Positions 7,996 through 57,565 of a DNA stretch of 64,000 nt are shown in pieces. A program made the position numbers and the translations under genes. Each line of letters opens with the position of its first letter. Within the stretch, counting starts at the first letter, position 1. The stretch covers positions 1 to 64,000 of the forward strand of contig NZ_SUME01000010.1 of assembly GCF_005048855.1 (NCBI RefSeq), given 5' to 3'. Below the pieces are notes generated by a model that searched no databases, was not told the DNA's origin, and saw only the letters and a list, made by a program, of their open reading frames with translations. Source of the DNA: Sphingobacterium olei (GTDB lineage Bacteria; Bacteroidota; Bacteroidia; Sphingobacteriales; Sphingobacteriaceae).

Positions 7996-8030
7996 CTTTT
8001 TAAAAAGCTTAATTCTATATATAATCATAT

Positions 8031-12395: not shown

Positions 12396-12568
12396 CTAAA
12401 TATTATCAATTTCTATTTGATGTGTTGGTCGTCATATTGCCCAGCATATAAACTTACTGCTATAAGTATATTGATCTGATGCGACGACTAGCGCATTCGC
12501 ATGAAACATGAGGTATAGATAGGGGTTGCGGATTGATTCTTGAATTTTAATGTCATAGTCTTATTTCA

Positions 12569-12680
12569 TTTATATGCTCCAAAGCGGTATTGCTTTGGAC
12601 AGGAATTGGCACCTTTTCAAATCTTTATTTGTAGGTTGCCAGTGGGTCACTGAGCCAGTCTCTCGCCACTTCTTTATAAA
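12569..12680 (-). promoter_or_regulatory. SAM-I (S-box) riboswitch controlling metY
   Basis: On the minus strand the S-box core elements follow in order: AAGAAGTGGCGAGAGACTGG, a P3 region ending in ACTGGCAACC, then AAAGGTGCCAATTCCTG. A P4 hairpin of CCAAAG..CTTTGG follows. P1 closes between TTTATA (12680-12675) and TATAAA (12574-12569). It binds S-adenosylmethionine and switches off downstream expression. The 195-base stretch between it and the metY start shows no clear terminator with a T-run, so the expression platform is not resolved. Confidence 0.9.
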
Positions 12681-12734
12681 CCAAGACCTATTTATCAAGG
12701 TGTTGATTAGGTGCACTACTATCGAAGTACATTG

Positions 12735-37341: not shown

Positions 37342-37404
37342 ACAAAAAAAGCCCAATCTTTCGATTGCGCTTTATTTTGTGATTCCTATGGGAGGTTTGA
37401 ACCA
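37342..37404 (+). repeat. Degenerate copy of the tRNA-Lys 3' end plus terminator (left island repeat)
   Basis: From 37342 the sequence matches the copy at 57455 onward: 26 bases identical (ACAAAAAAAGCCCAATCTTT and the next six), then a similar stretch. It continues with TGATTCCTATGGGAGGTTTG at 37380-37399, which aligns with the tRNA 3' end TGATCCCGCTGGGATTCG with a two-base insertion. It lies in the same orientation as the two copies near 57.3-57.5 kb. It overlaps the end of the GntR gene. Read as a possible attachment-site remnant. Confidence 0.7.
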
Positions 37405-38139
37405 TCAGATGTTCCGTTTACTTTCTATTGTGTATGTAAAGGAATCTGCGCGGTAACAACCTACGTTATATTCAATAGGATTGTTGTTTATGTCATAAAC
37501 ATATCGTTTTCGGATAAGGATGGGCTCCCCTTGTTTTATTTCCAGTTTTGAAGCAATAAATGCATCTGCTGCTGCGGCACTTATCTCTTCTTTGGAGGTC
37601 AGTGCGATAACGCCATAATCCGTTTCGAGGATCTCATAAAGCGGACGGTTAAAGTTTTCTGATGCGGAGATGGGTATTTTTGGATTAAATTCAGAAATGA
37701 AATATACAAAAGGTGCATTCTTTTTTCCGCGTAAACGTTCAAGTCTCATAACTTTTGTTGACACCTCAATGTTGAAAAAAGCGGCAACTTCCGCTGATAC
37801 CTCATGCCGAAATATCTGCAGTTCAAAATTATAAATTTCTATACCAAGGATTCGCATTTCCTCGGAAAAACTGAGCCAGTTACTGACACCGCTAAATATT
37901 TTCTTTTTCTGCACGCGTGTGCCGACTCCTTTTTTCCGAACAAGCAATCCTTCTGTCACCAACGTGTTAATCGCCTGCCGTAAGGTGTTCCGTGATATTT
38001 TTAATTGTTCAGACAAGTCGACTTCCTTTGGAAGATACTGTCCATCCCGATATTCTGGTTCATCGATAAGCCTCCGAATAAGCTCTTCTGCCTGTTTATG
38101 GAAAGGTATCGAGCTTTTGTGATCTATTTGTAATTCCAT
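37405..38139 (-). CDS. GntR/HutC family transcriptional regulator
   Basis: The N-terminal winged helix (IPFHKQAEELIRRLI, YLPKEVDLSEQLKISRNTLRQAINTLVTEGLLVRKKGVGTRV) is followed by a UTRA ligand-binding domain (RLRGKKNAPFVYFISEFNP, IKQGEPILIRKRYVYDINNNPIEYN). It is divergent from the mannan operon across a 125-base control region and probably represses that operon until a sugar or sugar phosphate binds (inference). A GntR regulator is unusual for a SusC/SusD locus, where hybrid two-component or ECF regulators are common. Confidence 0.92.
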   Translation of the reverse strand: MELQIDHKSSIPFHKQAEELIRRLIDEPEYRDGQYLPKEVDLSEQLKISRNTLRQAINTLVTEGLLVRKKGVGTRVQKKKIFSGVSNWLSFSEEMRILGIEIYNFELQIFRHEVSAEVAAFFNIEVSTKVMRLERLRGKKNAPFVYFISEFNPKIPISASENFNRPLYEILETDYGVIALTSKEEISAAAADAFIASKLEIKQGEPILIRKRYVYDINNNPIEYNVGCYRADSFTYTIESKRNI

Positions 38140-38175
38140 GTTTCGTGTATAAAAATAAAAAAATAATATGAATTT

Positions 38176-38228
38176 TTTGTTTTTTAATGAAATGATAATA
38201 TATTTGTTCTGTTATATGTTTATACATA
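38176..38228 (+). promoter_or_regulatory. Promoter and candidate GntR operator of the mannan operon
   Basis: TTTG (38176-38179), 19 bases, then TATATTTG (38199-38206) is a perfect Bacteroidota promoter. At the expected start of transcription lies a palindrome TATGT-TTAT-ACATA (38215-38228), of the kind bound by GntR/HutC repressors. Confidence 0.72.
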
Positions 38229-38264
38229 CTAATCATATGACTGAACAATTATTCAATTATAGAC

Positions 38265-39989
38265 ATGTTAAGTACTTACAAGAAGAAGCCCGCTATCGGA
38301 TTAAATGGTTTTGCTGTTGAAGGTTGGAAGGCTATTATTTCTCTTTTGGAAAAGAGAAGCACCGCCAAAAGTATCCTAGTAATAGATTATTACACCGGAA
38401 TAAACCACGAGGAGCTGCAAACTCAATTTGCGAAGTTCGAAACGGATTTATTTATCCATACAAAAGATCTATTTATATCGGAATCGGATGCCGAAGCATT
38501 AACAGCCCGTTTTATGACGGATGATGTGCTGTTTGGATACAATTCTAATATTTCCTTATCGGAATATTTCGATCAGGAGAAATTGCAAACTGCGCAGCTT
38601 GCGGTTAAGGAAGCCAAGGGGCGTGTGGTGATATTCGGTCATGGGGCACAACTGGTATCAATTGCCGATACCCTGATTTACGCTGATATGCCGCGGTGGG
38701 AAATACAGATGCGTATGCGAAAGCAAGAAGCAATTGCACTAGGTATTGACAATAGAAATGAACCTTTTTCGCTTCAGTATAAGCGTGGACTATTTAACGA
38801 CTGGCGTGTACTCGACAGGCACAAGCGTGCAATTTACGATAAAGTAGACTATTGGCTCGATACCGTTGTTGCCAATGCCCCTAAGATGATAGACAGGGAG
38901 ACGTTCTATGCGGGAATGGACAAAGCAGCTGTTTCGCCCTTTCGTGTGGTGCCTTTCTTTGATCCTGCACCATGGGGTGGTCAGTGGATGAAAAAGAAAT
39001 TTGAGCTCGATGCGTCGAAAGTGAATTACGGTTGGGGCTTTGATTGTGTGCCTGAGGAGAATAGTCTACTCCTTGATGTCAATAACATTGTATTCGAAAT
39101 GCCTTCTGTGAATCTGGTGTATACGAGGAGCGCTGAATTGCTCGGTAAGCCGGTTGAAGCGCGTTTTGGGAAAGATTTTCCGATCCGTTTTGACTTCCTC
39201 GATACGGTAAATGGAGGCAATTTGAGCCTGCAGGTACACCCGACCACCCAATATGCCCGCGATAATTTCGGGCTACCTTATACGCAGGATGAGAGTTACT
39301 ACATCATGGAGGCGAAAGAAGATGCGCATGTCTATATCGGACTAAAAACGGGTATAGATCGTCACGTCATGATGGATGAGTTGGATAAGGCGGAACAAGG
39401 CGATCTTGTTTTCGACGCTGATAAATATGTGAATAAAATTCCAACGAAGAAACACGATCATTTTCTGATCCCCGCCGGTACAATACATTGTTCCGGAATG
39501 AATGCAGTGGTACTGGAGATCAGCTCAACACCAAATCTATTTACGTTTAAACTTTGGGACTGGCAGCGGCTAGGCTTAGATGGAAAGCCGCGCCCAATTA
39601 ACGTGCAACGGGGTAAACAAGTACTCAATTGGGACTGCGATACCGCATATACCGAGGCACAATTGGTGAATAATGTTAAAGTCGTTGCCCAAGGCGAGGG
39701 CTGGATTGAAGAACAAACAGGGCTGCACAACAGTGAATTTATCGAAACACGTCGGCATACTTTCTCCGTTCCGGTTACACATTATACGAAGGAAAGTGTC
39801 AACGTACTGAATTTAGTAGATGGTGACGAAATTATCGTTGAAAGTCCAACGAATGCTTTCGAACCCATGGTTATCCATTACGCTGAAACGTTCATTATCC
39901 CAGCAGCCGTGGGTGCATATCGTATTCGCCCACATGGGGTCTCCGAAGGTAAAGAATGCATCACCCTTAAAGCATCTGTAAGGATTTGA
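38265..39989 (+). CDS. Class I mannose-6-phosphate isomerase with kinase-like N-terminal domain
   Basis: The C-terminal ~340 residues are a type I phosphomannose isomerase: NGGNLSLQVHPTTQYARDNFG (metal ligand region), then HDHFLIPAGTIHCSGMNAVVLEIS. The N-terminal ~200 residues resemble a nucleoside/uridine-kinase-like fold (VVIFGHGAQLVSIADTLIYAD, FNDWRVLDRHKRAIYDKVDYWL), but no intact P-loop GxxxxGK is seen. It would convert mannose-6-phosphate to fructose-6-phosphate. It is first in the operon and is followed by the sugar importer and kinase genes. Confidence 0.85.
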   Translation: MLSTYKKKPAIGLNGFAVEGWKAIISLLEKRSTAKSILVIDYYTGINHEELQTQFAKFETDLFIHTKDLFISESDAEALTARFMTDDVLFGYNSNISLSEYFDQEKLQTAQLAVKEAKGRVVIFGHGAQLVSIADTLIYADMPRWEIQMRMRKQEAIALGIDNRNEPFSLQYKRGLFNDWRVLDRHKRAIYDKVDYWLDTVVANAPKMIDRETFYAGMDKAAVSPFRVVPFFDPAPWGGQWMKKKFELDASKVNYGWGFDCVPEENSLLLDVNNIVFEMPSVNLVYTRSAELLGKPVEARFGKDFPIRFDFLDTVNGGNLSLQVHPTTQYARDNFGLPYTQDESYYIMEAKEDAHVYIGLKTGIDRHVMMDELDKAEQGDLVFDADKYVNKIPTKKHDHFLIPAGTIHCSGMNAVVLEISSTPNLFTFKLWDWQRLGLDGKPRPINVQRGKQVLNWDCDTAYTEAQLVNNVKVVAQGEGWIEEQTGLHNSEFIETRRHTFSVPVTHYTKESVNVLNLVDGDEIIVESPTNAFEPMVIHYAETFIIPAAVGAYRIRPHGVSEGKECITLKASVRI

Positions 39990-40014
39990 TTACTTGACAT
40001 TAAGATCATACGTT

Positions 40015-41172
40015 ATGCAAAGCAACAAAGAAAATAAATCACCTCTCGTGCTGATACCGATATTTCTCAATTTTTTTATCATGGGGTTTGTAGATATCGT
40101 AGGGGTAGCGACGAACTATGTGAAGAAGGATTTTGTATTGTCGGAAACAACGGCTAGTATCATACCGATGATGGTATTTGTCTGGTTTGCCGTATGTGCT
40201 GTCCCTACAGGGGTGCTCATGGGTAAAATAGGTCGAAAGAAAACGGTGGCGGTTTCGTTGGTCATCACGGCGCTGGCAATGGGTATTTCATTCCTCGTAT
40301 ACAGCTACTTGGGGATATTATTCGCTTTTGCTTTACTTGGAATTGGAAATACTATTTTACAGGTTTCGTTGAATCCGTTGGTGGCATCTGTCGTACGAAA
40401 GGAAAAACTCACCAGTATACTGACTATGGGGCAGTTTATCAAGGCAATTGCCTCGTTTCTAGGTCCTATACTGGTGGGATTTGCGGCAACGCAGGTGGGC
40501 GACTGGCGTTTTATATTTTTGTTTTACGGGCTGGCAACAATTTTATCTATCGTTGTTCTCTACACGCTGCATATTGACGAACCGACGGAGACCGTGGAAA
40601 AGTCTTCTTCATTCCGAAAGATATTTACCTTATTGAATGATAAATACCTCATCAATTGTATCCTTGTTATCGTATTGATTGTGGGGATCGATGTGGGACT
40701 GAATACCAGTATACCCCAGCTATTAATGGACCGTCTAGCGATACCCTTGGAGGATGCTGCGTTGGGTACAAGTCTCTACTTTGCCGCGCGCACCATCGGT
40801 ACTTTTGTTGGCGCCTTACTTTTGGTCAGGTTATCTGCCGTAAAATTCCTGCGGGGTACTATCGTGTTGGCTGTTTTGGCTTTTGTGGGTATGATATTCA
40901 GTTCGTCGTTATGGGGGTTGCTTGCGGCCATTGTGATAGTTGGGCTTGCCTGCGCCAATGTGTTTTCGATTATCTTTTCCCTGGCGCTGCAACATGATAT
41001 GAAGCATGCAAACGAAATATCGGCTTTGATGATTATGGGCGTATCGGGCGGAGCCTTGGTGTTGCCGTTGCAAGGTTTGATTACCGATATGTCTAGCTTC
41101 ACAGCCGGGCTGTCGGTCATACTGGTCAGTATGCTTATCATCGGTTCGATTTCATATAAATTTAAATACTAG
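40015..41172 (+). CDS. MFS sugar transporter, inner membrane
   Basis: ATG 40015 is preferred to the in-frame TTG 39994. The 385-residue protein has about 12 membrane helices in two halves, with the MFS loop GVLMGKIGRKK between helices 2 and 3, and resembles the fucose/glucose permease group of proton symporters. In this operon it most likely imports mannose released in the periplasm. The ROK kinase gene begins four bases after the stop codon. Confidence 0.88.
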   Translation: MQSNKENKSPLVLIPIFLNFFIMGFVDIVGVATNYVKKDFVLSETTASIIPMMVFVWFAVCAVPTGVLMGKIGRKKTVAVSLVITALAMGISFLVYSYLGILFAFALLGIGNTILQVSLNPLVASVVRKEKLTSILTMGQFIKAIASFLGPILVGFAATQVGDWRFIFLFYGLATILSIVVLYTLHIDEPTETVEKSSSFRKIFTLLNDKYLINCILVIVLIVGIDVGLNTSIPQLLMDRLAIPLEDAALGTSLYFAARTIGTFVGALLLVRLSAVKFLRGTIVLAVLAFVGMIFSSSLWGLLAAIVIVGLACANVFSIIFSLALQHDMKHANEISALMIMGVSGGALVLPLQGLITDMSSFTAGLSVILVSMLIIGSISYKFKY

Positions 41173-41176
41173 GCCC

Positions 41177-42274
41177 ATGTACGATTACGACAACCGCATT
41201 GTATTGACCTTAGACGCAGGTGGAACAAATATGGTCTTCTCGGCTATTCAAGCGAATAAGGAAATAGTGGACTCTTTCTGTCTTCCGGCATATCCGAATG
41301 ATCTAGAAAAGTGCCTGAAAACGTTGACTACCGGATTTACGCATATATGGAATCAGTTGCCAACGGCTCCGGTAGCGATAAGTTTCGCGTTTCCCGGACC
41401 CGCGGATTACAAAAACGGGATTATTCATGATTTGCCTAATTTTCCGTCATTTCGCGGCGGTGTTCCGCTTGGCCCTTTTTTAGAGGAACATTTTCAGATA
41501 CCCGTTTTTATCAACAATGACGGTAATCTGTTTGCGTATGGAGAAGCATTGGCGGGCGCATTGCCGACCTTGAATAATCAATTAAAAATACGAGGGGCAA
41601 ACAAAGAATATCGTAACCTTATCGGTGTAACATTCGGCACAGGGTTTGGGTCGGGCGTGGTGATAAATAATTATTTGTTAACGGGCGATAACGATTGCGG
41701 AGGAGATGTGTGGGTGTTTCGTAATAAATTTTTTCCCGATATGATTGCCGAAGAAAGCGTCAGTATACGCGCCATTACACGGGTATACTGTGAACTTGCC
41801 GGTGTTACGGACAAGAGGCTAACACCTAACGATATATTTCGCATTGCGGAGGGTGAAAAACAAGGTGATCGGCGCGCCGCGCTAACAAGTTTTGCCCAGT
41901 TTGGCGAAGTCGCCGGAGACGCTATTGCACATCTACTCACTTTTGTAGATGGTATAGTCGTTATTGGCGGTGGAATTATGGGTGCGGCGAAATACATTAT
42001 GCCTGCACTGATAAACGAATTGAAATCTACCTTAACGACTTTTTCTGGAGAACGGCTCTCCCGTCTGCAAATGGAGGTGATCGAAGCCGACGATGATGGC
42101 AACTTCAATCAGGCTATTGCAGAAGGGCAAAGGCAGATCCGGATACCAAATACCAATAAAAAAATAAACTACAATCCCCATAAAACGACTTTTATCATGA
42201 AAACTAAGCTTGGAACAAGCACAGCCATTTCGTTAGGTGCCTATGCCTATGCGTTACACACATTAGGAAATTAG
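41177..42274 (+). CDS. ROK family sugar kinase
   Basis: ATP-binding motif LTLDAGGTNMVFSAI lies at the N-terminus, then AISFAFPGPADY, FINNDGNLFAYGEALAGA with the catalytic Asp, and GVTFGTGFGSGVVINN. The 365-residue protein lacks the usual CxCGxxGC zinc motif of many ROK proteins; the matching place reads NDCGGDVWVF. It has no DNA-binding N-terminus, so it is a kinase, not a repressor. In context it probably phosphorylates mannose for the isomerase encoded two genes upstream. Confidence 0.87.
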   Translation: MYDYDNRIVLTLDAGGTNMVFSAIQANKEIVDSFCLPAYPNDLEKCLKTLTTGFTHIWNQLPTAPVAISFAFPGPADYKNGIIHDLPNFPSFRGGVPLGPFLEEHFQIPVFINNDGNLFAYGEALAGALPTLNNQLKIRGANKEYRNLIGVTFGTGFGSGVVINNYLLTGDNDCGGDVWVFRNKFFPDMIAEESVSIRAITRVYCELAGVTDKRLTPNDIFRIAEGEKQGDRRAALTSFAQFGEVAGDAIAHLLTFVDGIVVIGGGIMGAAKYIMPALINELKSTLTTFSGERLSRLQMEVIEADDDGNFNQAIAEGQRQIRIPNTNKKINYNPHKTTFIMKTKLGTSTAISLGAYAYALHTLGN

Positions 42275-42307
42275 ATTATAAATAACTAAAGATTAAATTA
42301 TGATGTT

Positions 42308-45300
42308 ATGAAAAATAAGTTATCCATTATCAAGAGCAGGGGACAGACCTCCAGCTTATTCAGCCTAAGACATACAATCTTTCTTCGGTACCTATTATGC
42401 CTCTTTTTAGGTATACATACCTTCTCGGTAGCAGCTCAGAACAATAACACGTCAGTAGAGGGCATAGTCGTCAACGAATCCAATACGCCCGTTTCAGGAG
42501 CGTCGGTAAAGGAAGTAGGCGGAACGAATGTGACTCGAACGGATTCTGAAGGTCAGTTTACCCTGAATGTGTCTTCTCCTAACACAACCTTGATGGTATC
42601 CTACGTCGGCTACGCGACACTGGAAGTTTCGGTGGCTGGAAGATCAAGTTTGCGGATCGTACTCGAGGTAACAAACGAGGAACTTGATGAAGTGGTAGTG
42701 GTCGGCTATGGCACGCAAAAGAAAGCGAATGTAACGGGTGCGATTTCTTCTGTTAACATGAAAGAACTGGAAGGAAGACCGGTGGTCAACGTGGTAGAGG
42801 CTTTGCAGGGTACGACCCCTGGTTTAACCATACAACAGAGTAATTCACAGCCAGGAAGCCGCCCATCGATTAATATACGTGGTATCAATACGTTGAATAA
42901 CAATGATCCTATGGTTTTAATTGATGGTATAATTGGTGATATACAGAATGTTAATATGGCGGATATTGAAAGTATATCTGTCTTGAAAGATGCTGCTTCG
43001 GCTGCTATCTATGGATCGCGTGCATCTAACGGTGTTATTCTTATCACGACCAAAAAAGGAAGCAAGGGCACCTCACGGGTATCTTATGATTATATTCTTG
43101 CGGCGCAGACGCCTACTTTTTTGCCTCAGATAGTCGATTCGTGGGTATATGCCGAACTTCGCAATGAAGCACTCATCAATTCTGGTCGACCGACTCAATT
43201 CTCTTCTGAACAGATACGGGATTACCGTGTAAACGGTCCCAATGCCAATTGGATGAAAGAAATCTATCGGGCTAATGCGCCACAGCAAACGCATAGTCTG
43301 TCGGTTTCTGGAGGTGGTGAAAAGACTACCTACTTAATTTCAGGCGCGTATATGGATCAGGAGAGTATGTTTAAAGGATCTGATTATGGGCTTGAACGCC
43401 TTAATTTTCGTACAAATGTGGAAACTCAGGTATCGGACCGCTTTAAGGTGAATGTTCTTGCCGCATATTCCCGTAATGCACTAAAAGATCATGCGTATTG
43501 GACGGAATGGCTCATTGAGCAGGCTACGCGTATGCCATCGATCTATCCCATAAAAAATGCGAACGGTGACTATAACTACCCTGGGGGGAGCAATTCGAAT
43601 TCCTTAGCCCGTTTGGAGCAAGGAGGACAACGGAGTAGTGCAAATGACGATTTATCGGGTATACTGAATGCGGAATATAAGATCTTGGATGGATTAAAAT
43701 TACGAGGAATGGTCGGTACACAGTTGTACAACAACCGGCTAAAAGAAAACCGCAAAGCTATACCGGGCTCTGGCGATCTGGAGAATCGGATGACCAATAG
43801 TTCGCAACGAATACAGAATATTACGACTAACCTTATCTTGTCGTACGACAAGACTTGGGGAGCCCATACGGTCAATACACTGGCAGGGTATTCTTATGAA
43901 GGGGGGACGGACAACCGTTTTGAAACATTCCGACTGGTCGACGAATCCAATTACGATATCATGGGAGGGGCACAGACCTCCAATACAGGTAATCAGGAAT
44001 GGCAGAATGAGTGGTCTATTTATTCGGCATTTTTGAGCATGAACTATAATTTCGCAGATAAGTACCTGTTTGAGTTTAAACTTCGTGACGATATTTCTTC
44101 TAAGTTCAGGGTGGGAAACCGATCTGCGTGGTTTCCTTCGATGTCTGCTGGATGGCGGGTATCCGATGAAAATTTTTATCCCGAGCGTCTGAAAAATATC
44201 ATGCCTTCCGCTAAAATCAGATCATCCTGGGGTTTAGTAGGTAATAACCGCATTGCGGATTATCAATACCAGGCCACAGTCAATGTTTCTCAAGGATATA
44301 ATTTTGGCAATACGATGTATCCAGTCGCCTCATTTGATGCTGTTAATCCGGATTTAAGATGGGAGACCACCCAAATGTTCAATATAGGAGCTGACTTAGG
44401 TTTCTTAAATAATGCATTGACCCTATCGGGCGAGTATTACGTAAACGATACATACGATATCCTTATCGGTATTCCAGTTCCAGGCTTGTTCGGAGGTGGA
44501 ACACCGATTCAGAATGCAGGTAAGGTACAGAACAAAGGATGGGAGATAGCCGCACGCTACCAATTTACAACGGGAGGGGTAAATCATACCGTGAGTGGAA
44601 ATTTATCGGATAGTAAAAACAAAGTGATCGACGTCAAAGGTACTGAATGGATCAATGGATTTGATGTCAACACCGTAGTGCGCGAAGGTTATCCCATAAA
44701 CTCCTACTACGCTTATCGTTGGGACGGATATTTTCAGAATGAAGAGGAGGTCGCCCAAGGGCCTCATTTGGATGGGATAACGCCAAAGCCTGGCGACATT
44801 CGATACTTAGACAAAAATGGAGATGGCCTAATCAGGGAAGATGACGACCGCTTCGTATTGGGAAATAGATTTCCCCGATTTTTATATGGCTTTAATTATG
44901 CTGCAGGATGGAAGGGTGTTGACTTCTCCATGTTCTGGCAAGGAGTTGGGCAACGAAAAGTATGGTTAAGAGGTGAGTCGGTAGAAGCTTTCCATAACAA
45001 TAATGAAGGCCCGGTTTTTAATTTTCATGTCGATCGCTGGACACCAACTAATCCGGATGCAGGGTATCCGCGGCTTACCGTTGGAGCAGAATCGGCTAAT
45101 AATGCTACGAAATCAAGTTTTTGGATAGAAAATGCGGCCTATCTGCGCCTGAAGAACGTACAACTGGGCTATACATTTCCCGAGAATTGGACCAACAGGG
45201 TTTCGCTAAGTCGTCTTCGGATCTATACCAGTATACAGAATGCCTTAACCTTATCCGATATGAAAGGGGGGTGGGATCCGGAGACTTCTGATGGTGGTGG

Positions 45301-45355
45301 GCGTATTTACCCGGTAAACCGAACCTTTTCTATAGGGTTAAACCTTAACTTTTAA
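42308..45355 (+). CDS. SusC/RagA family TonB-linked outer-membrane transporter
   Basis: The 1015-residue protein starts with a long signal region, then a carboxypeptidase-like plug-proximal domain (VEGIVVNESNTPVSGASV, TLMVSYVGYATLEV). The TonB box-like DEVVVVGYGTQKK and the plug (NIRGINTLNNNDPMVLIDGI, VLKDAASAAIYGSRASNGVI) follow. A large barrel ends in FSIGLNLNF. It imports oligosaccharides across the outer membrane together with the SusD protein encoded next. Confidence 0.97.
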   Translation: MKNKLSIIKSRGQTSSLFSLRHTIFLRYLLCLFLGIHTFSVAAQNNNTSVEGIVVNESNTPVSGASVKEVGGTNVTRTDSEGQFTLNVSSPNTTLMVSYVGYATLEVSVAGRSSLRIVLEVTNEELDEVVVVGYGTQKKANVTGAISSVNMKELEGRPVVNVVEALQGTTPGLTIQQSNSQPGSRPSINIRGINTLNNNDPMVLIDGIIGDIQNVNMADIESISVLKDAASAAIYGSRASNGVILITTKKGSKGTSRVSYDYILAAQTPTFLPQIVDSWVYAELRNEALINSGRPTQFSSEQIRDYRVNGPNANWMKEIYRANAPQQTHSLSVSGGGEKTTYLISGAYMDQESMFKGSDYGLERLNFRTNVETQVSDRFKVNVLAAYSRNALKDHAYWTEWLIEQATRMPSIYPIKNANGDYNYPGGSNSNSLARLEQGGQRSSANDDLSGILNAEYKILDGLKLRGMVGTQLYNNRLKENRKAIPGSGDLENRMTNSSQRIQNITTNLILSYDKTWGAHTVNTLAGYSYEGGTDNRFETFRLVDESNYDIMGGAQTSNTGNQEWQNEWSIYSAFLSMNYNFADKYLFEFKLRDDISSKFRVGNRSAWFPSMSAGWRVSDENFYPERLKNIMPSAKIRSSWGLVGNNRIADYQYQATVNVSQGYNFGNTMYPVASFDAVNPDLRWETTQMFNIGADLGFLNNALTLSGEYYVNDTYDILIGIPVPGLFGGGTPIQNAGKVQNKGWEIAARYQFTTGGVNHTVSGNLSDSKNKVIDVKGTEWINGFDVNTVVREGYPINSYYAYRWDGYFQNEEEVAQGPHLDGITPKPGDIRYLDKNGDGLIREDDDRFVLGNRFPRFLYGFNYAAGWKGVDFSMFWQGVGQRKVWLRGESVEAFHNNNEGPVFNFHVDRWTPTNPDAGYPRLTVGAESANNATKSSFWIENAAYLRLKNVQLGYTFPENWTNRVSLSRLRIYTSIQNALTLSDMKGGWDPETSDGGGRIYPVNRTFSIGLNLNF

Positions 45356-45366
45356 AACGTATTATT

Positions 45367-46971: not shown

Positions 46972-46988
46972 CCTTTAAACTGAATAGC

Positions 46989-48131: not shown

Positions 48132-48135
48132 ACGT

Positions 48136-49332: not shown

Positions 49333-50516
49333 TGAATATGAAAGCAGGACTGTCTTTACTTTTAGCGCTCTGTATGTTGGCATTTACTGTGCACGCACAG
49401 CAAAAAAGTAGTTATCTGCAGCGAGCTGAAGAGACTATCGGGCTTGTGTGGGAAAAATATCGGGTGCACGAGCATGGACTATTCGCTGAATATTATCCAA
49501 ATAGTTACAAACCGGACCTAACGTATTTTCAGGAGGGCGGACAAAAAGCCAAGGAGGTTTCTTATCTGTGGCCGATGAGCGGGGTATTTTCGGCTGTCAA
49601 TGTACTTATGGAGTTGAAACCAAATAGGTTTAAACCTTATCTTGACTCCATGGTAATAGCAGTGGAACAATACCTGGATAAGACCCGTACACCGTATGGA
49701 TACCAGGCGTATCCGTCCAAATTTGAAACCGTGGACCGGTATTATGACGACAACGGCTTGGTGGGTATTGATTATATGGATTCCTATTCAATCACAGGGG
49801 ACGCATCGTACTTAGCGAAAGCGAAAGAGGTGATGACCTTCATCGAGAGCGGTTGGACAGACAGTTTCGGCGGTGGTGTCTCCTGGCTGGAAGGGATAGA
49901 TGATCAAAAGCCTGCCTGTAGTAACGGCAAAGCTACAGTGTTGGCTTTGAAGATTTATCAGGCTTCGGGTGAAGAAAAATATCTACATTACGCCATGAAA
50001 TCGTATAACTGGATGCTTGCTACACTTCGTGATGACACGCTGGGCATCATATGGAATGCATTGCTGACCCCGGATCGTACGACAGGACACGTGCAGAAAC
50101 ACGCTTATACATATAATACGGGTACGATGATTCAATCGGCCGTGAGGCTATATAAGATCACAAGCAACGCCAAATATCTGGAGGATGCTCATGCGTTGGC
50201 AGAAGGCTCTTATAGATACTACTTCGATTATACCACGGAAGGTATTCCACAGGTCAAGGATATTCCTTGGTTCACCCTGGTATTATTTAGAGGTTATCAC
50301 GAATTGTACGAGATCGATCAAAACCCCAAATATGTGGATGCAGTAATCGAACGCGCGGATTGGGCATGGGAGCATGCGCGTGACGAAGAAGGCTTACCTT
50401 GTGCAGATTGGACGGGTCGAAAAGATGAGATGAAAAAGCCGAAATGGTTACTGGATACATCCTGTATGGCCGAACTGTATGCCCGTATTGCCCTGATTAA
50501 AAATAAGGGCGGTTAA
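49332..50516 (+). CDS. GH76 endo-alpha-1,6-mannanase, exported
   Basis: The stop/start overlap TGATG at 49330-49334 couples it to the preceding GH76. It has an ordinary signal peptide (LSLLLALCMLAFTVHAQQ) without lipobox, so it is probably periplasmic. The paired catalytic Asp residues are in RYYDDNGLVGIDYMDSY, with VSWLEGIDDQKPACSNGKAT and TYNTGTMIQSAVRLYK following. A surface/periplasm pair of GH76 enzymes is known from yeast-mannan loci in Bacteroides; the same split is inferred here. Confidence 0.9.
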   Translation: MNMKAGLSLLLALCMLAFTVHAQQKSSYLQRAEETIGLVWEKYRVHEHGLFAEYYPNSYKPDLTYFQEGGQKAKEVSYLWPMSGVFSAVNVLMELKPNRFKPYLDSMVIAVEQYLDKTRTPYGYQAYPSKFETVDRYYDDNGLVGIDYMDSYSITGDASYLAKAKEVMTFIESGWTDSFGGGVSWLEGIDDQKPACSNGKATVLALKIYQASGEEKYLHYAMKSYNWMLATLRDDTLGIIWNALLTPDRTTGHVQKHAYTYNTGTMIQSAVRLYKITSNAKYLEDAHALAEGSYRYYFDYTTEGIPQVKDIPWFTLVLFRGYHELYEIDQNPKYVDAVIERADWAWEHARDEEGLPCADWTGRKDEMKKPKWLLDTSCMAELYARIALIKNKGG

Positions 50517-50542
50517 TAATAACTTTCAATAACGTATATAAA

Positions 50543-52909
50543 ATGAAACAAACGAATCTACTCTTATTGCTGGCAACTCTCCATATACTGATCTCATCCT
50601 GTGCAGGAAACAGAGAAACTGTAGAAAAATTGTCAGATCATGTGAATCCCAATATAGGATCGGTACACAGTCGCTGGTTCTTCTATACACCTGCTGCCGT
50701 GCCTTTTGGAATGGCCAAACTGGGGCCGTCTACTAACGGGTCCTATGGGAATGCGAACGGTTGGGAAGCCGTAGGATACGAAGATGGCCACAGCTCTATC
50801 GAAGGCTTTGCTTGTTTTCATGAATTCCAGATCGGAGGTGTAATGTTGATGCCAATTGTCGGGGAGTTAAAGACCAAACCGGGAACATTAGAAAACTCTG
50901 CTGAGGGTTACCGGTCCGTTTTCAAAAAGGAAAATGAGTATGCTACATCTGGATTTTATAGCGTCTTGCTGGATAAATACAACACCAAAGTAGAGCTTAC
51001 TGCAGCGGATCGGGTAGGATACCAACGGTATACGTTTCCGCAGTCGGATGAGTCGTATATCTTATTTGATATTGGAAACAAATTGGGCGAAAGCGGTGCT
51101 GTAGAAGATGCTTATATTAAAGTGATCGATGATACGACTATTGAAGGTTATGTAATAACGAAGCCAGAATACGTCAAAAAGTACCAACCGGAGGCTTCCG
51201 TAAATATGTACTTCTATGCGAAGTTGAGTAAACCTTTTACGGATGCTAAGACATTCCTGCGCGCGGATACGGTTACCACTGAGAAAGAAATAAAGGGAGC
51301 GGGAGCCTGCTTGGCTGTGAAATATAATACAGCAACGGATGAGCAGATTACGGTAACAATAGGCCAATCTTACACATCGATTGAAAATGCAAAACTGAAC
51401 TATGAGGCGGAGGCCTTGGATCAGAATTTTGATAGCGCCATGGAAAAAGCATCACAACGATGGAACGATATGCTTGGACGTATACAGGTAGAAGGGGGTC
51501 GTCAGGAAGATAAGGTAAAGTTCTATACCGGACTCTACCATGCCCTGTTGGGAAGAGGATTGGCAAATGATGTCAATGGGGCATATCCTAAAAATGACGG
51601 TACTATTGGACACCTTCCATTGGATAAAAATCAAAAACCAACGTATAATTATTATAATACGGATGCAATCTGGGGTGGATTTTGGAACCTCACCCAATTA
51701 TGGGCATTAGCTTATCCAGAATATTATTCGGATTGGGTACAGAGCCAGTTATTGGTGTATAAAGAAACGGGTTGGCTAGGCGATGGAATTGCTAATAGCA
51801 AATACGTGTCTGGTGTTGGAACGAATTTTACTAGTCTCGCTATCGCGGCTGCTTATAATTGTGGGATCCGGGATTTTGATTACCAACTCGGATATGAAGC
51901 AGCGTTAAAGAATGAGATCGATGAGGTCAATCGACCTTCTGGCGCAGGTAAGTTGGATGTTGGGGCGTTTGTAAAACGTGGCTACTGTCCATATATTCCA
52001 AGTGACGATTACTTCATTACTAAGCAGGATGAAGGTTCGGTGTTTGGAGCTTCCCATACCATGGAGTATTCTTTTAGTAGCTATGCTGTGGCCCAATTCG
52101 CAAAGAACTTAAATAAAGAAGACGATTATCAACGTCTTTCTAAAATGGCATCAAACTGGGAGAATCTCTTTGATTCCGAAACCGAACTGATCCGTCCACG
52201 CATGTTGGATGGAAGTTTCTTGAAAAACTTTGATCCTATGGCAGCGTGGGCAGGCTTTCAGGAAGGTAACGCTATACAGTATACTTTTTACGTGCCGCAC
52301 GAACCGAATAAATTAATTGATAAAGTGGGGCAGGATGTCTTTAACGAGCGTTTGGACAGTATTTTTATTCATTCTCAAAAAAATACCTTTGGTGGTGGTA
52401 AAACAGTGGATGCATTTGCTGGCGTACATGCATTGTATAACCACGGTAACCAGCCAAACCTGCATGTATCCTGGTTGTTCAATTTCTCCGGAAAGCCGTA
52501 TTTGACCCAAAAATGGGTACGCGCGATCTGTAATGAATTTTACGGTGTTGATGGATTACATGGCTACGGATACGGTCAGGACGAAGACCAGGGACAGCTG
52601 GGCGCGTGGTACGTGATGGCGGGAATGGGGTTGTTTGACGTGAAAGGTTTAACACAGATCAATCCAGAATTCCAGATTGGTAGTCCTCTATTTGATCGTA
52701 TAGAGGTGAAGTTAAATAAGAAATATTATAAAGGCGATAAGTTTGTTATTGAAGCACGGAACAACGCTCCGGAAAACATGTATGTGCAGTCACTCAACAT
52801 AAATGGTAAAGCACAACAATCGGTAGCTATACCATTTCAGGATGTAGTAAACGGCGGAATACTGAAAATAGAAATGGGAACGGAGCCAAATCATGATTTA
52901 AAGCAGTAG
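50543..52909 (+). CDS. GH92 alpha-mannosidase, lipoprotein
   Basis: The 788-residue lipoprotein (ILISSC lipobox) spans a full GH92 enzyme: DHVNPNIGSVHSRWFFYTPAAVPFGMAKLGPS, a beta-sandwich, then the (alpha/alpha)6 part with EGNAIQYTFYVPHEPN and YGQDEDQGQLGAWYVMAGMGLF. The EGN and DED motifs are the places of the acid and base residues in the family (from memory of GH92 structures). One segment reads MEYSFSSYAVAQF where its neighbour has LEYSFDDWTVGQF. It would remove alpha-mannose side chains in a calcium-dependent reaction. Confidence 0.9.
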   Translation: MKQTNLLLLLATLHILISSCAGNRETVEKLSDHVNPNIGSVHSRWFFYTPAAVPFGMAKLGPSTNGSYGNANGWEAVGYEDGHSSIEGFACFHEFQIGGVMLMPIVGELKTKPGTLENSAEGYRSVFKKENEYATSGFYSVLLDKYNTKVELTAADRVGYQRYTFPQSDESYILFDIGNKLGESGAVEDAYIKVIDDTTIEGYVITKPEYVKKYQPEASVNMYFYAKLSKPFTDAKTFLRADTVTTEKEIKGAGACLAVKYNTATDEQITVTIGQSYTSIENAKLNYEAEALDQNFDSAMEKASQRWNDMLGRIQVEGGRQEDKVKFYTGLYHALLGRGLANDVNGAYPKNDGTIGHLPLDKNQKPTYNYYNTDAIWGGFWNLTQLWALAYPEYYSDWVQSQLLVYKETGWLGDGIANSKYVSGVGTNFTSLAIAAAYNCGIRDFDYQLGYEAALKNEIDEVNRPSGAGKLDVGAFVKRGYCPYIPSDDYFITKQDEGSVFGASHTMEYSFSSYAVAQFAKNLNKEDDYQRLSKMASNWENLFDSETELIRPRMLDGSFLKNFDPMAAWAGFQEGNAIQYTFYVPHEPNKLIDKVGQDVFNERLDSIFIHSQKNTFGGGKTVDAFAGVHALYNHGNQPNLHVSWLFNFSGKPYLTQKWVRAICNEFYGVDGLHGYGYGQDEDQGQLGAWYVMAGMGLFDVKGLTQINPEFQIGSPLFDRIEVKLNKKYYKGDKFVIEARNNAPENMYVQSLNINGKAQQSVAIPFQDVVNGGILKIEMGTEPNHDLKQ

Positions 52910-52936
52910 AACTTGCGAAGTCAAATACTAACTAAT

Positions 52937-55900
52937 ATGATACGCATTCAGTTTATTTTAATTACGTTCGGTCTTATATTTAATGCCACGTCAATATATG
53001 CCCAGCAGCATGTCGTTTGGCAGATTGGTAGCAATGACAATCAGAGTGATGATATGTCTTTATATCCGAAGTCGTTCGAAAAGTTCCTTGAGTATGATTT
53101 TGGCTATGAAGACCGATGTTTTTTGATCGGATCGGCCGACACGCAAACCGAGTTTCCTTTTGTACTGCCCGGACCAAAAAATGCTTGGGGAGGAACGGGA
53201 AATACCGCAGGTATCCGTTCTCATTTTATAACACTCAGTTTTGAGCTGAATGAATTTCCGCGCAATAGATCCTGGAATCTTTCCTTGGATCTTCTTGGTG
53301 TCGATCCAAAGCATGGCTCTGTTCTTAAGCTACTCGTGAATGATAAGCCTTACATCTTCAGGCTCGAAAAGGGAAAAGGAAACGCTGATCCGATAGGTCC
53401 TTTTACCAAAGACCAGGAGCAAGTTGTCGAATTCGTATTGCCGGATGATTTAATCAAAGAAGGTTACAATGAAATCGTGATTACTTCACTCGATGGCGGT
53501 TGGATTGCTTTTGACGAAATTAAGTTAGTCGGTCCCGAGCAGGCGGCATTAAAGCCGGCGGCTGATGCATTAATAAGGAGCATACGACCAGCGACGTTTC
53601 AGACTGCAGATAATAAGCAAACTCTTCTAATCGATGTCGTTGATGTATATGATATGCCTACAATTGCTGTACAGCTTGATGGTAAAGAAATCATGAATCA
53701 ACGGCTTGAGGCTGGTCGCGCTATTCTGGAAGCTCCCATGCCTTCAGTAACCGGTAAGAAAACCAGCTCCTATAAAATACTGATCAACAATAAAGAATAT
53801 ACTTCCGGAACGGTCGTTCGTGAACCTCAGCAAGAGGTGAGTTCTGCTGATTATGTCAATACCATGATTGGTGCTGCCCATTCACGTTGGATGCTGGCGC
53901 CGGGGCCATGGATGCCATTTAGCATGGTCAAACTGAGCCCGGATAATCAAAACCGCGGATGGCAAGCGGGTTATGACCCAACTTTTGAATCCATAGGTAC
54001 ATTCAGCCATATCCACGAGTGGACCATGGCGGGATTGGGGACATTTCCGGTAACCGGTGAATTGATCACTTTTGTTGGTGATCAAAATGGTCTGGAGGGA
54101 GGCTATCGGTCGAAAATTGATAAAACAACAGAAAAAGCCCCACTGGGATATTATAAAGTAGATCTTACCGACTATAACATTCGTGCTGAATTAACAGCTT
54201 TAACTCGAAGCAGTTTTCAACGATACACCTACAATGAGGGGGATACAGGCAGAATTATGGTTGATCTTAAAATCCCTGCAGAATACGATTATGAATTGCA
54301 GGGGGTAAAGATCACAAAAGTAAGCGATACCCGAATAGAAGGAGTAAGCGAACAGCGATCAGAAAATGTGTGGTCTGGTGGCGTAAATCAAGATTATATT
54401 GTACATTTCGTCATGGAGTTTGATCAGCCTATCATCAATTATGGTTCGTGGCTGAATGATCAAGTCAGCGTTAAAAAAAATCTACACGCAAACAACGCAA
54501 AAAACGCGGGGCTATTTGTCGAATTCGATCTTAAAAATAGTAAAATCGTTCAACTTCGTACCGGCATATCTTATGTAAGTGTCGAAAATGCTGCATTAAA
54601 CCTTCAGCAAGAAATCAGCGTTCCATTTGGGTGGTCGTTTGACGGGGTAGTTGCTCAAAACCGATCAACCTGGAACGAGTTACTGAGCCGGATAGAAGTG
54701 GGCAGCAATGACTACTTGCAGAAAGAGAAATTTTATACCAACATGTATCGGGCTCTCGCTAGTCGCAATATTTTCAGTGATGTAGATGGAAGCTGGCGAT
54801 CCGCGGATGAAAAGATTCACAAGTTTACGCGTGCAGATGACTTGGCTCTCGGCTGCGATGCTTTCTGGAATACCTTCTGGAACCTTAACCAGTTTTGGAA
54901 CCTCGTTACTCCAGAATGGAGCAACCGCTGGGTGCGATCGCAATTAGCAATGTATGATGCTAATGGTTGGCTTGCTAAAGGACCTGCAGGTATGGAATAT
55001 ATTCCTGTGATGGTTGCTGAGCATGAAATCCCGCTTATTGTGGGGGCTTATCAAATGGGTATCCGGGATTATGATGTCGAAAAAGCTTTTGAAGCGGTGA
55101 AAAAAATGCAAACAACGCTTCCCGAAGTAGTAGCAGGTGGTTTTGCCGGTAATCGTGATCTTGAAGCTTATTTAAAATATAAATATGTTCCTTTTGACAA
55201 AGGCAGGTTCTCCAATTCGCTTGAATATAGTTTTGACGACTGGACGGTCGGTCAATTTGCTAAAGCCTTGAGAAAAACGGACGATTATGAAATTTTCAAT
55301 GAGCGTGGGCAATGGTGGAAGAATGTAATTGACCCAGAAACCGGCTATGCACGCATGAAAAATTCGGACGGCAATTGGCTTTCAGATTTCGATCCTTTTA
55401 AATCGGGTGCCAATGAACATTATGTGGAGGGCAATGCCTGGCAACTTACGTTCTTTGTACCACAGGATGTTATTGATCTGGCAGATCTCATTGGACGGGA
55501 TAAATTTCTTGAACGTCTCGATTGGGGCTTTGAGGAGAGCAATAAGTGGCGTTACAATGGACCTAATGATCAATATTGGGATTATCCTGTCGTGCAAGGC
55601 AACCAGCAATCCATGCATTTTGCTTATTTGTTTAATTGGGTCAAAAAACCATGGGTTACACAAAAATGGAGCCGCTCAATCGGTGAGCGATACTACGGGT
55701 CTGGTGTATCGAATGCCTATTTAGGAGACGAAGATCAAGGGCAAATGAGTGCGTGGTATCTGATGAACGCCATTGGCCTCTTCCAGATGGATGGAGGTAC
55801 ACGGGTAGAACCTGTCTATGAAATAGGAAGCCCGCTATTTGAAAAAGTTACCATCAATCTTGGTGGCAGGTATAACCGTGGAGAGCGCTTCACCATCGAA

Positions 55901-57286
55901 GCTAAAAACACCAGCAAGACCAATATTTATATTCAAACAGCAACCCTTAACGGGAAGCCTCTGAATGATTTTAAATTTCCGGCAAAGGAACTTCTAAAAG
56001 GGGGCAGTTTAGTGCTTGAAATGGGGCCAGAACCTAATAAAAGCTGGGGATTTGGGGATCTGAAAGCCCAAATCCGTTCCGATTCCCGTCTGTCGACGGT
56101 GAAGGATAAGGCCGTTGAGCTCGTTAAAAGCGGATTTACGGCGGGTGATGGTTACAGCGAAGTGTGGATCAGAGATTATAATACGTTCATCACTGTGGCG
56201 AGTATGGTTCATGACCCTAAATCCGTTAGAGAAAACCTAAGGGTATTCTTTAGGCTGCAAGGAAAGGACGGAAACATCATTGATGGTTTCGTACCAAAGA
56301 AGAAGGTTGAAAGCGCTGTCGAAGCTTATCAATACATTTATTCTGAACTGGAGCCTGATTATGCCGGACACAAAAATACAGTAGAAACCGATCAGGAATC
56401 CTCGTTGATCCAAGCTGTTTATAAATATATTATGGCTACAGGAGACAAAAGCTTCTTAGATGAAGCGATTGGCGGTATCACCGTAAAAAAACGTTTAGCT
56501 TTAGCGCTGGATTTTCTCATCAAGCATCGCTATAACAAGAGGTATGGATTGCTTTGGGGGGCCACAACAGCTGATTGGGGCGATGTCCAACCGGAACATG
56601 AGTGGGGAGTTTACCTCGATGAGAACTCCAACCTCGCTATTGATATTTATGATAATGCCATGTTTTTGGTTGCTATCGATAATTATCTTGAACTGGTTTC
56701 TGATGGTAACCGTAAGTGGGAAAAAATCAGAAAAGATATCGCAACAAACGCTATGAAGCATTTATGGGATGCAGACCGGCAAAAATTCATCCCCCATGTG
56801 TATCTGGATAAATCGCCTTTTCCTTCTACGTTTAATGAAGATGAAATCTTTTATCATGGCGGTACTGCAATTGCCATCGAAGCAAATTTACTTTCGAGGG
56901 AACAAGCAAAGGCCTCATTTGATAAAATGATAGAGAATGTTGAAAAATTAGGGGCACCTTCTGTAGGATTAACAATTTATCCTACCTATCCCGAAGGCAG
57001 TTTTCAAAATCCGGGCATGTCTCCCTACCATTATCAGAATGGAGGAGACTGGACTTGGTTTGGCGGACGTATTATCAAACAGATGATCAGGAATGGTTTT
57101 TATCAGCAGGCTTATGAGCAGATTATCCCGATGCTTGACCGTGTGTTAGTGAATAATGGCTTCTTTGAATTTTATGCCATTGACAATAAACCAAGTGGTT
57201 CTGGTTCGTTTAGAGGGTCGGCCGGCGTATTGTACGATGCGATTATATTACTGGAAGAATATGCCGCATCGGCATCTGAGCAATAA
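52937..57286 (+). CDS. Multidomain exported GH92 fused to a second (alpha/alpha)6 glycosidase-like domain
   Basis: ATG 52937 starts the signal peptide (FILITFGLIFNATSIYAQQ). The 1449-residue product has three parts. Residues ~22-210 resemble the polysaccharide-lyase-type carbohydrate-binding module (WQIGSNDNQSDDM, GYNEIVITSLDGGWIAFDEIKL). Residues ~303-1034 are GH92 (YVNTMIGAAHSRWMLAPGPW, SLEYSFDDWTVGQ, EGNAWQLTFFVP, GDEDQGQMSAWYLMNAIGLF). The last ~415 residues form another (alpha/alpha)6-like domain (GYSEVWIRDYNTFITVASMV, LLWGATTADWGDVQ, NGGDWTWFGGRIIKQMIRNG), perhaps MGH1/GH63-like. Both catalytic parts may act on the same mannan. The frame is intact throughout. Confidence 0.85.
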   Translation: MIRIQFILITFGLIFNATSIYAQQHVVWQIGSNDNQSDDMSLYPKSFEKFLEYDFGYEDRCFLIGSADTQTEFPFVLPGPKNAWGGTGNTAGIRSHFITLSFELNEFPRNRSWNLSLDLLGVDPKHGSVLKLLVNDKPYIFRLEKGKGNADPIGPFTKDQEQVVEFVLPDDLIKEGYNEIVITSLDGGWIAFDEIKLVGPEQAALKPAADALIRSIRPATFQTADNKQTLLIDVVDVYDMPTIAVQLDGKEIMNQRLEAGRAILEAPMPSVTGKKTSSYKILINNKEYTSGTVVREPQQEVSSADYVNTMIGAAHSRWMLAPGPWMPFSMVKLSPDNQNRGWQAGYDPTFESIGTFSHIHEWTMAGLGTFPVTGELITFVGDQNGLEGGYRSKIDKTTEKAPLGYYKVDLTDYNIRAELTALTRSSFQRYTYNEGDTGRIMVDLKIPAEYDYELQGVKITKVSDTRIEGVSEQRSENVWSGGVNQDYIVHFVMEFDQPIINYGSWLNDQVSVKKNLHANNAKNAGLFVEFDLKNSKIVQLRTGISYVSVENAALNLQQEISVPFGWSFDGVVAQNRSTWNELLSRIEVGSNDYLQKEKFYTNMYRALASRNIFSDVDGSWRSADEKIHKFTRADDLALGCDAFWNTFWNLNQFWNLVTPEWSNRWVRSQLAMYDANGWLAKGPAGMEYIPVMVAEHEIPLIVGAYQMGIRDYDVEKAFEAVKKMQTTLPEVVAGGFAGNRDLEAYLKYKYVPFDKGRFSNSLEYSFDDWTVGQFAKALRKTDDYEIFNERGQWWKNVIDPETGYARMKNSDGNWLSDFDPFKSGANEHYVEGNAWQLTFFVPQDVIDLADLIGRDKFLERLDWGFEESNKWRYNGPNDQYWDYPVVQGNQQSMHFAYLFNWVKKPWVTQKWSRSIGERYYGSGVSNAYLGDEDQGQMSAWYLMNAIGLFQMDGGTRVEPVYEIGSPLFEKVTINLGGRYNRGERFTIEAKNTSKTNIYIQTATLNGKPLNDFKFPAKELLKGGSLVLEMGPEPNKSWGFGDLKAQIRSDSRLSTVKDKAVELVKSGFTAGDGYSEVWIRDYNTFITVASMVHDPKSVRENLRVFFRLQGKDGNIIDGFVPKKKVESAVEAYQYIYSELEPDYAGHKNTVETDQESSLIQAVYKYIMATGDKSFLDEAIGGITVKKRLALALDFLIKHRYNKRYGLLWGATTADWGDVQPEHEWGVYLDENSNLAIDIYDNAMFLVAIDNYLELVSDGNRKWEKIRKDIATNAMKHLWDADRQKFIPHVYLDKSPFPSTFNEDEIFYHGGTAIAIEANLLSREQAKASFDKMIENVEKLGAPSVGLTIYPTYPEGSFQNPGMSPYHYQNGGDWTWFGGRIIKQMIRNGFYQQAYEQIIPMLDRVLVNNGFFEFYAIDNKPSGSGSFRGSAGVLYDAIILLEEYAASASEQ

Positions 57287-57301
57287 TAATATTATTCGTT
57301 T

Positions 57302-57369
57302 TCATTCCTTTGGATACAAAAAAAGCCCAATCTTTCGATTGAGCTTTTTGTTGTGATCCCGCTGGGATT
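57302..57369 (+). repeat. Partial duplicate of the tRNA-Lys 3' end and terminator
   Basis: A copy of 57441-57508, offset by 139 bases and nearly identical. It holds the hairpin AAAAAGCCCAATC..GATTGAGCTTTTT and the last 17 bases of tRNA-Lys (TGATCCCGCTGGGATT from 57354), then diverges. The rest of the tRNA is missing. The hairpin lies 40 bases after the mannan operon and probably terminates it. Confidence 0.85.
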
Positions 57370-57440
57370 GTTGGCGTCCCGCTTTCCCCGTACTCAAGGC
57401 TGCCAAGAAATTGTTCGAACCCATCCCAACGCTTCTGTTC

Positions 57441-57508
57441 TCATCCCTTTGGGCACAAAAAAAGCCCAATCTTTCGATTGAGCTTTTTGTTGTGATCCCG
57501 CTGGGATT
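57441..57508 (+). repeat. Right repeat: tRNA-Lys 3' end and its terminator
   Basis: The intact-side copy of the repeat. Its hairpin (57459-57488) is the terminator of tRNA-Lys on the minus strand, and the repeat continues into the tRNA as far as the T-loop. Confidence 0.85.
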
Positions 57509-57565
57509 CGAACCCAGGACCCATACATTAAAAGTGTATTGCTCTACCAGCTGAGCTACGGAATC
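57493..57565 (-). tRNA. tRNA-Lys (anticodon TTT)
   Basis: The minus strand folds as a full 73-nt tRNA. The acceptor GATTCCG pairs with CGGGATC with one G-U pair. The D-arm is in TAGCTCAGCTGGTAGAGCA. The anticodon stem ATACA/TGTAT carries the loop CTTTTAA, and the T-arm is CTGGG-TTCGAAT-CCCAG. The 3' CCA is not encoded. A terminator follows at once. Confidence 0.96.

Follow-up and report, generated by a model that had tools for sequence, protein, structure and literature searches.

A putative alpha-mannan operon at tRNA-Lys of Sphingobacterium olei and its probable link to serine recombinase elements

The mannan operon and its surroundings

An operon for glycan use was identified between a Crp/Fnr-type gene and tRNA-Lys in Sphingobacterium olei, within a 64-kb stretch of DNA that was analysed as a whole (the window). 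The same chromosomal site was filled in one sister species and empty in another, and the operon was probably left there by an element with a large serine recombinase that inserts behind tRNA 3' ends. The locus contained the following features.

36585..37277, minus strand: Crp/Fnr-type gene (Pfam), left flank, 0.4 kb from PrmC in S. alkalisoli
37342..37378, minus strand: terminator, left copy, with 3 mismatches to the copies beside the tRNA; a single copy at the empty site of S. alkalisoli
37379..37406, minus strand: left junction arm, abutting the GntR stop codon
37405..38139, minus strand: GntR-family regulator (Pfam)
38265..39989, plus strand: 574-aa protein conserved in the operon, with no Pfam or NCBIfam match
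39994..41172, plus strand: MFS transporter (Pfam)
41177..42274, plus strand: ROK-family kinase (Pfam)
42308..45355, plus strand: SusC-like TonB-dependent receptor (Pfam)
45367..46971, plus strand: SusD (Pfam)
46965..48131, plus strand: SusE (Pfam)
48103..50516, plus strand: two genes of glycoside hydrolase (GH) family 76 (Pfam)
50543..52909, plus strand: first GH92 gene (Pfam)
52913..57286, plus strand: second GH92 gene (Pfam), with a domain like a carbohydrate-binding module
57287..57306, no strand: right junction, 18 of 20 bases in common with S. pedocola
57307..57369, minus strand: second unit of the tRNA tail repeat, with a copy of the tRNA 3' end (57354-57369), a terminator and part of a spacer
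57353..57435, minus strand: hairpin unit with a covarying stem, ending in a copy of the tRNA 3' end
57436..57491, minus strand: spacer and terminator directly behind tRNA-Lys
57492..57565, minus strand: tRNA-Lys(ttt), found by ARAGORN and Rfam
57768..58640, minus strand: PrmC-like methyltransferase gene (Pfam), right flank

A SusC/SusD pair stood together with glycoside hydrolases, as in Sus-like glycan utilization loci. GH76 and GH92 point to alpha-mannan, which would be the substrate here, judged from these two families. GH76 was tied to alpha-mannan utilization in Salegentibacter, according to the accessible part of the source (PMC9213526). An earlier reading made from the sequence alone, the first-pass annotation, had placed a mannan operon with its GntR gene between the outer two of three repeats of the tRNA-Lys end, and the Pfam assignments of the genes in the interval confirmed this. 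It had also seen no integrase or relaxase there; indeed the island interval contained no match to serine recombinases or to PF00589 (tyrosine integrase), and Pfam identified neither relaxase nor transfer genes in the island. The second GH92 gene, the last operon gene in the window, was located between the ROK and SusC genes in G003 and G027, and was absent from the S. pedocola operon.

The G+C content of the operon was 0.438, with 0.395 and 0.371 in the flanks, and the operon was thus richer, as the first-pass annotation had estimated by eye. But operon copies at other sites reached 0.442 (S. alkalisoli) and 0.435 (G035), and since the operon is at about 44% there also, its G+C is no evidence of insertion and was ruled out as an indication that the operon is foreign. 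A value of 0.463 was measured for a SusC-like gene at another place in the S. olei genome. Two further RNA features of the window, RNase P RNA (7609-7999, plus strand) and a SAM riboswitch (12567-12682, minus strand), were ordinary.

Filled and empty sites

The flanking genes were placed in 93 Sphingobacterium genomes, S. olei included. PrmC was matched in all 93, weakly in G077, and Crp in 90, at 86% or more only in S. olei, S. pedocola (G042) and S. alkalisoli (G002), with 54% as the next best value. In S. alkalisoli a gap of about 0.4 kb separated the two genes and contained a single tRNA-Lys and a single terminator. This is an empty site, with the gene order that the first-pass annotation had predicted for a relative lacking the operon; no trace of the arm or of the operon was present in the 0.4 kb read, and the terminator was ordinary. 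In S. pedocola about 19 kb separated the genes and contained the orthologous operon, which lacked the second GH92 gene, and an extra gene, DedA-like by eye, beside Crp; this locus has since been entered by an insertion sequence (ISL3-like by eye). S. lumbrici (G033) had the right flank, with no close Crp and no operon at the site. With an intact tRNA at one end and an empty site in a relative, as in known tRNA islands, the reading as a genomic island is well supported.

The operon was searched in the 93 genomes with the 574-aa protein as query, which was matched in 59 genomes and at 72% or more in 10 (S. olei included); ten genomes were inspected besides S. olei and the S. pedocola site. Eight held the operon at other loci, two of them (G027 and G030) partially. 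It was located between metK and a DagK-like gene (both named by eye) in G035, G003, G064, G025 and, partially, G027 (loci L103-L112), at two further loci in S. alkalisoli and G044, and partially at another in G030, while G046 and G067 had distant, rearranged relatives of it. No tRNA was found within the 40 kb read at seven of the eight copies, and in G030 a tRNA-Pro was about 20 kb away. The metK-DagK interval was 271-276 bp long and without the operon in S. olei (contig C23, 63930-64205), S. alkalisoli, S. pedocola and S. lumbrici. Since the operon occurs elsewhere and the site here is empty in a relative, the cluster has moved. The first-pass annotation had held that relatives carrying the operon elsewhere, with the repeats absent, would speak against insertion; such copies do exist in these eight genomes, but together with the empty site they point to movement.

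Operon proteins of S. olei were 82.3-84.5% identical to those of four second-clade species, versus 73.1-75.3% for seven housekeeping proteins; within S. olei, S. pedocola and S. alkalisoli the values were 85.4-88.8% for the operon versus 94.5-95.6% for housekeeping proteins. These identities make a transfer of the operon between clades likely, because a fixed difference in rate would not give values that cross. The operon tree was weak (supports 48 and 69) and named no donor; it was built without the MFS transporter, for which G044 had no usable match.

It is quite unlikely that the ancestor already had the operon at this site and that S. alkalisoli, with its copy elsewhere, lost it cleanly. 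The flanks from Crp to PrmC could be compared in only three species, the branching order of S. alkalisoli and S. pedocola had a support of 53, and S. lumbrici is also without the operon, all of which leave room for such a loss. Nevertheless, the clean sequence with its ordinary terminator at the S. alkalisoli site and the operon copies at other loci in eight genomes argue against it.

Repeats and junctions at tRNA-Lys

The tRNA-Lys was the sole tRNA in the window. Three copies of its 3' end with terminator, all in the same orientation, had been described in the first-pass annotation, and three copies on one strand were indeed found: positions 57302-57369 and 57441-57508 were identical at 65 of 68 positions, and a 40-nt terminator core, with up to nine mismatches allowed, occurred in the window only at 37344 (3 mismatches), 57318 (0) and 57457 (0), and not at all on the opposite strand of the window. 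In a whole-genome search the left copy was one among 11 matches (E = 1.5e-12). The three repeats differ in origin: the middle copy is a tandem unit of the tRNA tail, and the left copy is a terminator with a 28-nt arm. The terminators and the right copies stood as described; for the tRNA-like half of the left copy, an element arm is the better fit. The left terminator (37342-37378) is read as the native one, pushed away from the tRNA.

The middle copy was part of a unit of about 138 bp in which a tRNA 3' end, a terminator and a hairpin are combined. Eight units served to build a covariance model, which had matches in at least 80 of the 93 genomes (E <= 0.01), with tRNA-Lys present at 9 of 12 fetched matches and 8 copies of the tRNA end in G067. 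The six-pair stem covaries, with two-sided changes in 13 cells among 8 sequences and in 32 among 25 distinct sequences (0 of 500 shuffles as high; the 25-sequence alignment was fitted to the model), and 5 of the 6 pairs were recovered by an unaided fold. A list of ten units also included entries of other kinds (for example L119, and the far arm in L067). Tandem units with the hairpin were located as follows.

Window, 57353-57435, minus strand: tandem unit
L138, 1431-2533: tandem unit
L148, 1293-1754: tandem unit
L155: tandem unit
L156, 1444-1752: tandem unit

In Rfam the window unit had no match at gathering score, and L138 and L148 had only sub-gathering matches besides tRNA. In the S. olei genome the hairpin also preceded copies of tRNA-Ser and tRNA-Pro 3' ends. 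The first-pass annotation had feared a hairpin common across the genome without tRNA sequence; the hairpin does recur elsewhere, but its three sites on contig C25 (150400, 177923 and 185767) were at or behind the second tRNA-Lys. The middle copy, taken at first as a trace of insertion, was ruled out as a scar of the island, being a unit of a widespread tandem repeat headed by tRNA-Lys in the nine matches given above. Hairpin units were also ruled out as carriers of the operon, the repeat model having 0 matches in the 19 stretches that surrounded operon copies or comparison sites, the empty site of S. alkalisoli included.

In G067 (C1 1723776-1757000; L158 and L119), the only genome in which an island association of the fetched repeat loci was looked at, tRNA-Lys with an eight-copy tail repeat was followed about 13 kb on by a displaced tRNA-like end, and a distant mannan-type cluster was found shortly past this end. 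In S. lumbrici, the sequence behind the tRNA-Lys at PrmC (L014 2900-3280) resembled by eye the far side of the other tRNA-Lys array in S. alkalisoli (C18 near 36 kb), which suggests an exchange between tRNA-Lys loci.

At the left junction, the GntR stop codon was directly followed by the same arm and terminator in S. olei and S. pedocola, and the arm was missing from the eight operon copies at other sites. The right junction was located just inside the spacer, and its agreement between the two species was reached by 0 of 1000 shuffles. Both junctions fit one ancestral insertion. A chance arrangement around the operon, with all repeats being plain terminators and tRNA tail repeats, is extremely improbable: such a reading holds for the middle copy, and the tail repeat is widespread, but the repeat model matched neither the empty site nor the surroundings of the operon elsewhere, and the position of the left copy at the exact operon end in two species contradicts it.

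Serine recombinases, the origin of the island and known systems

A single recombinase match was present in the S. olei genome, on contig C25 beside the other tRNA-Lys, and none in the window. Behind the second tRNA-Lys on C25 came a terminator, a hairpin unit, a copy of the tRNA end and then the gene of a 551-aa recombinase with Resolvase, Recombinase and zinc-ribbon domains. At this locus (150401-177985) the far arm and terminator of the insert came 27 kb onward, and the element was apparently inserted at the copy of the tRNA end and not at the tRNA itself. Its cargo included dehydrogenase-like and RND/TolC-like genes by eye.

Recombinase homologues were matched in 52 of the 93 genomes. A tRNA gene was found within 1.5 kb at 21 of 30 fetched recombinase loci (11 Lys, 3 Glu, 3 Pro, 2 Arg and 2 Met), versus 1 of 11 operon loci with a tRNA nearby, which served as a crude control. 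In nine genomes (G011, G015, G016, G029, G043, G059, G061, G070 and S. wenxiniae, G089) a recombinase match was directly beside PrmC, with tRNA-Lys between the two in all except G015, whose locus was outside the fetched set. Far ends were sought by reading for ten tRNA-Lys elements besides C25 and were found in G016, G061, G086, G040 and S. alkalisoli (C18), about 39 to 65 kb from the tRNA; none was found in 80 kb each of G059, G070 and S. wenxiniae, and G029 and G074 ended at contig ends. The G061 element carried TraG, a coupling protein and a relaxase, and the S. alkalisoli element a relaxase, a primase-like protein, a distant SusC-like receptor, FecR and a sigma factor. There was no support for a glycan locus among the cargo of the latter, the candidate SusD being thioredoxin-like and a 931-aa protein a lantibiotic dehydratase. 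The first-pass annotation had named integrase-mediated insertion as the usual source of such repeats. A tyrosine integrase was rejected as the enzyme, since none of the 36 PF00589 matches in six genomes was inside the window island or the six reference elements, and the likely enzyme is a large serine recombinase.

The 28-nt left arm of the mannan island scored 17.4 in alignment with the far arm of C25, 10.8 with the tRNA and 10.1 with the S. alkalisoli arm, and the C25 score was reached in 0 of 5000 shuffles of arm bases 9-28. A tRNA-like end in the same orientation was found at the far side of the island, closer to an element arm than to the tRNA, and positions 37379-37406 look like the arm (attR) of a serine recombinase element rather than a worn tRNA end. 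But such arms imitate the tRNA, and the assignment depends on one close match, that to the C25 arm of the same genome.

The operon would have arrived in the common ancestor of S. olei and S. pedocola, as cargo of an element or through the enzyme of one, and the recombinase would join the element to the tRNA-Lys end or to a copy of this end in the tandem repeat. Such a joint would leave the tRNA intact and shift its terminator to the far side of the element. The left remnant would then be the far arm with the displaced terminator (37342-37406) and the right one the tRNA with its repeat, while a deletion of the near attachment site with the adjoining recombinase gene would have fixed the island. 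We consider this origin, through a large serine recombinase element inserting behind tRNA 3' ends, probable; the enzyme, the position of the cut and the deletion are what we infer in it, while the empty and the filled site, the common junctions, the operon at other loci, the likeness of the arm and the element family were observed. The first proposal, that the operon was inserted at tRNA-Lys, is partly supported: it is kept, with an empty site in a relative and a scar of site-specific type, and corrected in the origins of the repeats, in the class of enzyme and in its G+C argument.

Several points weigh against this origin. The enzyme is deduced rather than seen, because neither a recombinase nor a near attachment site is left in the island; no element with both a recombinase and the mannan operon was found among the loci examined, and far ends were found in only five of the ten elements. 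There is likeness between the left arm and the tRNA end too (the score of 10.8 was attained in 2 of 5000 shuffles), and the arm scored only 2.1-4.1 against the arms of the integrative and conjugative elements (ICEs) of G016, G061, G086 and G040, so that likeness to the attachment arms of the family is close for the C25 arm and weak for these four. In DNA identity (the second GH92 gene yielded no pair), 8 of 10 S. olei operon genes were nearer to the S. alkalisoli copy elsewhere than to the copy that S. pedocola has at this site, but for the flank genes S. pedocola was nearer than S. alkalisoli in 8 of 9. This conflict speaks against plain descent of a single insertion, although the operon tree is weak, and later replacement or unequal rates may be the cause. 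S. lumbrici is the nearest by flank and is without the operon, so an operon loss must be assumed.

The same conflict between operon and flank identities would be expected if the operon had been inserted separately, or later replaced, in S. olei and S. pedocola, and the G+C at third positions of SusC and SusD also differed between them (53.0 and 54.1 in S. pedocola versus 43.5 and 47.5 in S. olei); but at both junctions most bases are the same in the two species, and we regard such a history as very unlikely. Homologous recombination between the two tRNA-Lys tails, or between a donor and what was left of an older element, would need no site-specific enzyme. The two tails of the genome were 86% identical across 213 query bases, the likeness between S. 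lumbrici and S. alkalisoli suggests by eye that tRNA-Lys loci exchange sequence, and at its right end the operon meets the spacer and not an attachment site. However, the left end of the operon is exactly at the element arm, and a donor sharing longer flanks was not found, which makes this course unlikely as well.

Integration might also swap the tail of the recombinase itself. At all 18 tRNA-adjacent loci of the larger subfamily (L033-L037 and L039-L051), the recombinase frame ran through the terminator and antisense into the tRNA, ending inside the tRNA gene in 16 and beyond it in 2; the other three tRNA-adjacent loci differed, L022 and L024 stopping 438 and 354 nt short and L030 having only a 222-aa frame. 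The far arms of G016, G061, G086 and G040 were in the recombinase frame (frame 0) and gave tails of 48-54 residues, which have PLVQNSNSFL in common and end in KR, with 12, 4 and 22 differences at codon positions 1, 2 and 3 (60 nt, six pairs). The far arms of C25 and S. alkalisoli gave related tails of 24 and 23 residues. From these frames the attachment site would lie within the recombinase gene, with the caveat that the far arms are mutually related and that 10 of the 18 loci have nearly the same tRNA-Lys; a free-standing frame from GTG is possible as an alternative to the tails.

If so, the recombinase of the circle form would have a conserved C-terminal tail of about 50 residues, and on integration this tail would stay at the far end and be replaced by one read antisense from the host tRNA. 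A joint picture can be proposed tentatively, in which recombinases insert behind tRNA 3' ends, integration swaps the tail of some 50 residues for a tRNA-antisense tail, the tRNA-Lys tail repeats act as spare landing sites (as on C25), and the mannan island is leftover cargo. Integration would then change the form of its own enzyme, and the recombinase would carry a simple switch of its own between free and integrated forms.

No tRNA-targeting serine recombinase family of Sphingobacterium and no recombinase tail swap was found in the literature searched, in which subscription journals were little covered. In the accessible parts of the sources, serine recombinases are described as not known to target tRNA genes (PMC4383910), their insertion at tRNA genes as rare (PMC3218068), and tRNA targets as belonging to tyrosine enzymes (PMC5704250). 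In the locus described here, a cluster for glycan use is seen at a chromosomal site that is filled or empty depending on the named sister species, and its scar is linked to serine recombinases at tRNA ends, a pairing of enzyme and target that the first two of these sources present as not known or rare.

The comparisons below refer to those parts of each source that were accessible. The tRNA islands of Islander (PMC4383910) likewise have a whole tRNA at one end, a tRNA-like sequence of the same orientation at the opposite end and an empty site in a relative, whereas the mannan island has no integrase, its far repeat resembles an element arm and its likely enzyme is a serine recombinase. Serine recombinases with a tRNA target are found in the actinomycete ICEs (AICEs) of Mycobacterium (tRNA-Leu) and in phage phiRSM1 (tRNA-Ser), which are alike in enzyme class and target but belong to another phylum and use other tRNAs (PMC3218068). 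The ICECleSHZ29-like ICEs of Chryseobacterium, at tRNA-Met and tRNA-Glu with 17-bp repeats, are also Bacteroidota ICEs at tRNA 3' ends, and their tRNA-Glu repeat is the same end that loci L039 and L043 abut; the likeness is one of target site, the word "serine" being absent from the paper (PMC12561888). The alpha-mannan loci of Salegentibacter share GH76 in a Bacteroidota glycan-use cluster and are likened by GH76 alone, while the S. olei cluster includes a GntR regulator, a ROK kinase and an MFS transporter (PMC9213526). Mobile glycan loci and tRNA islands are known kinds, of which the enzyme class proposed here is a variant.

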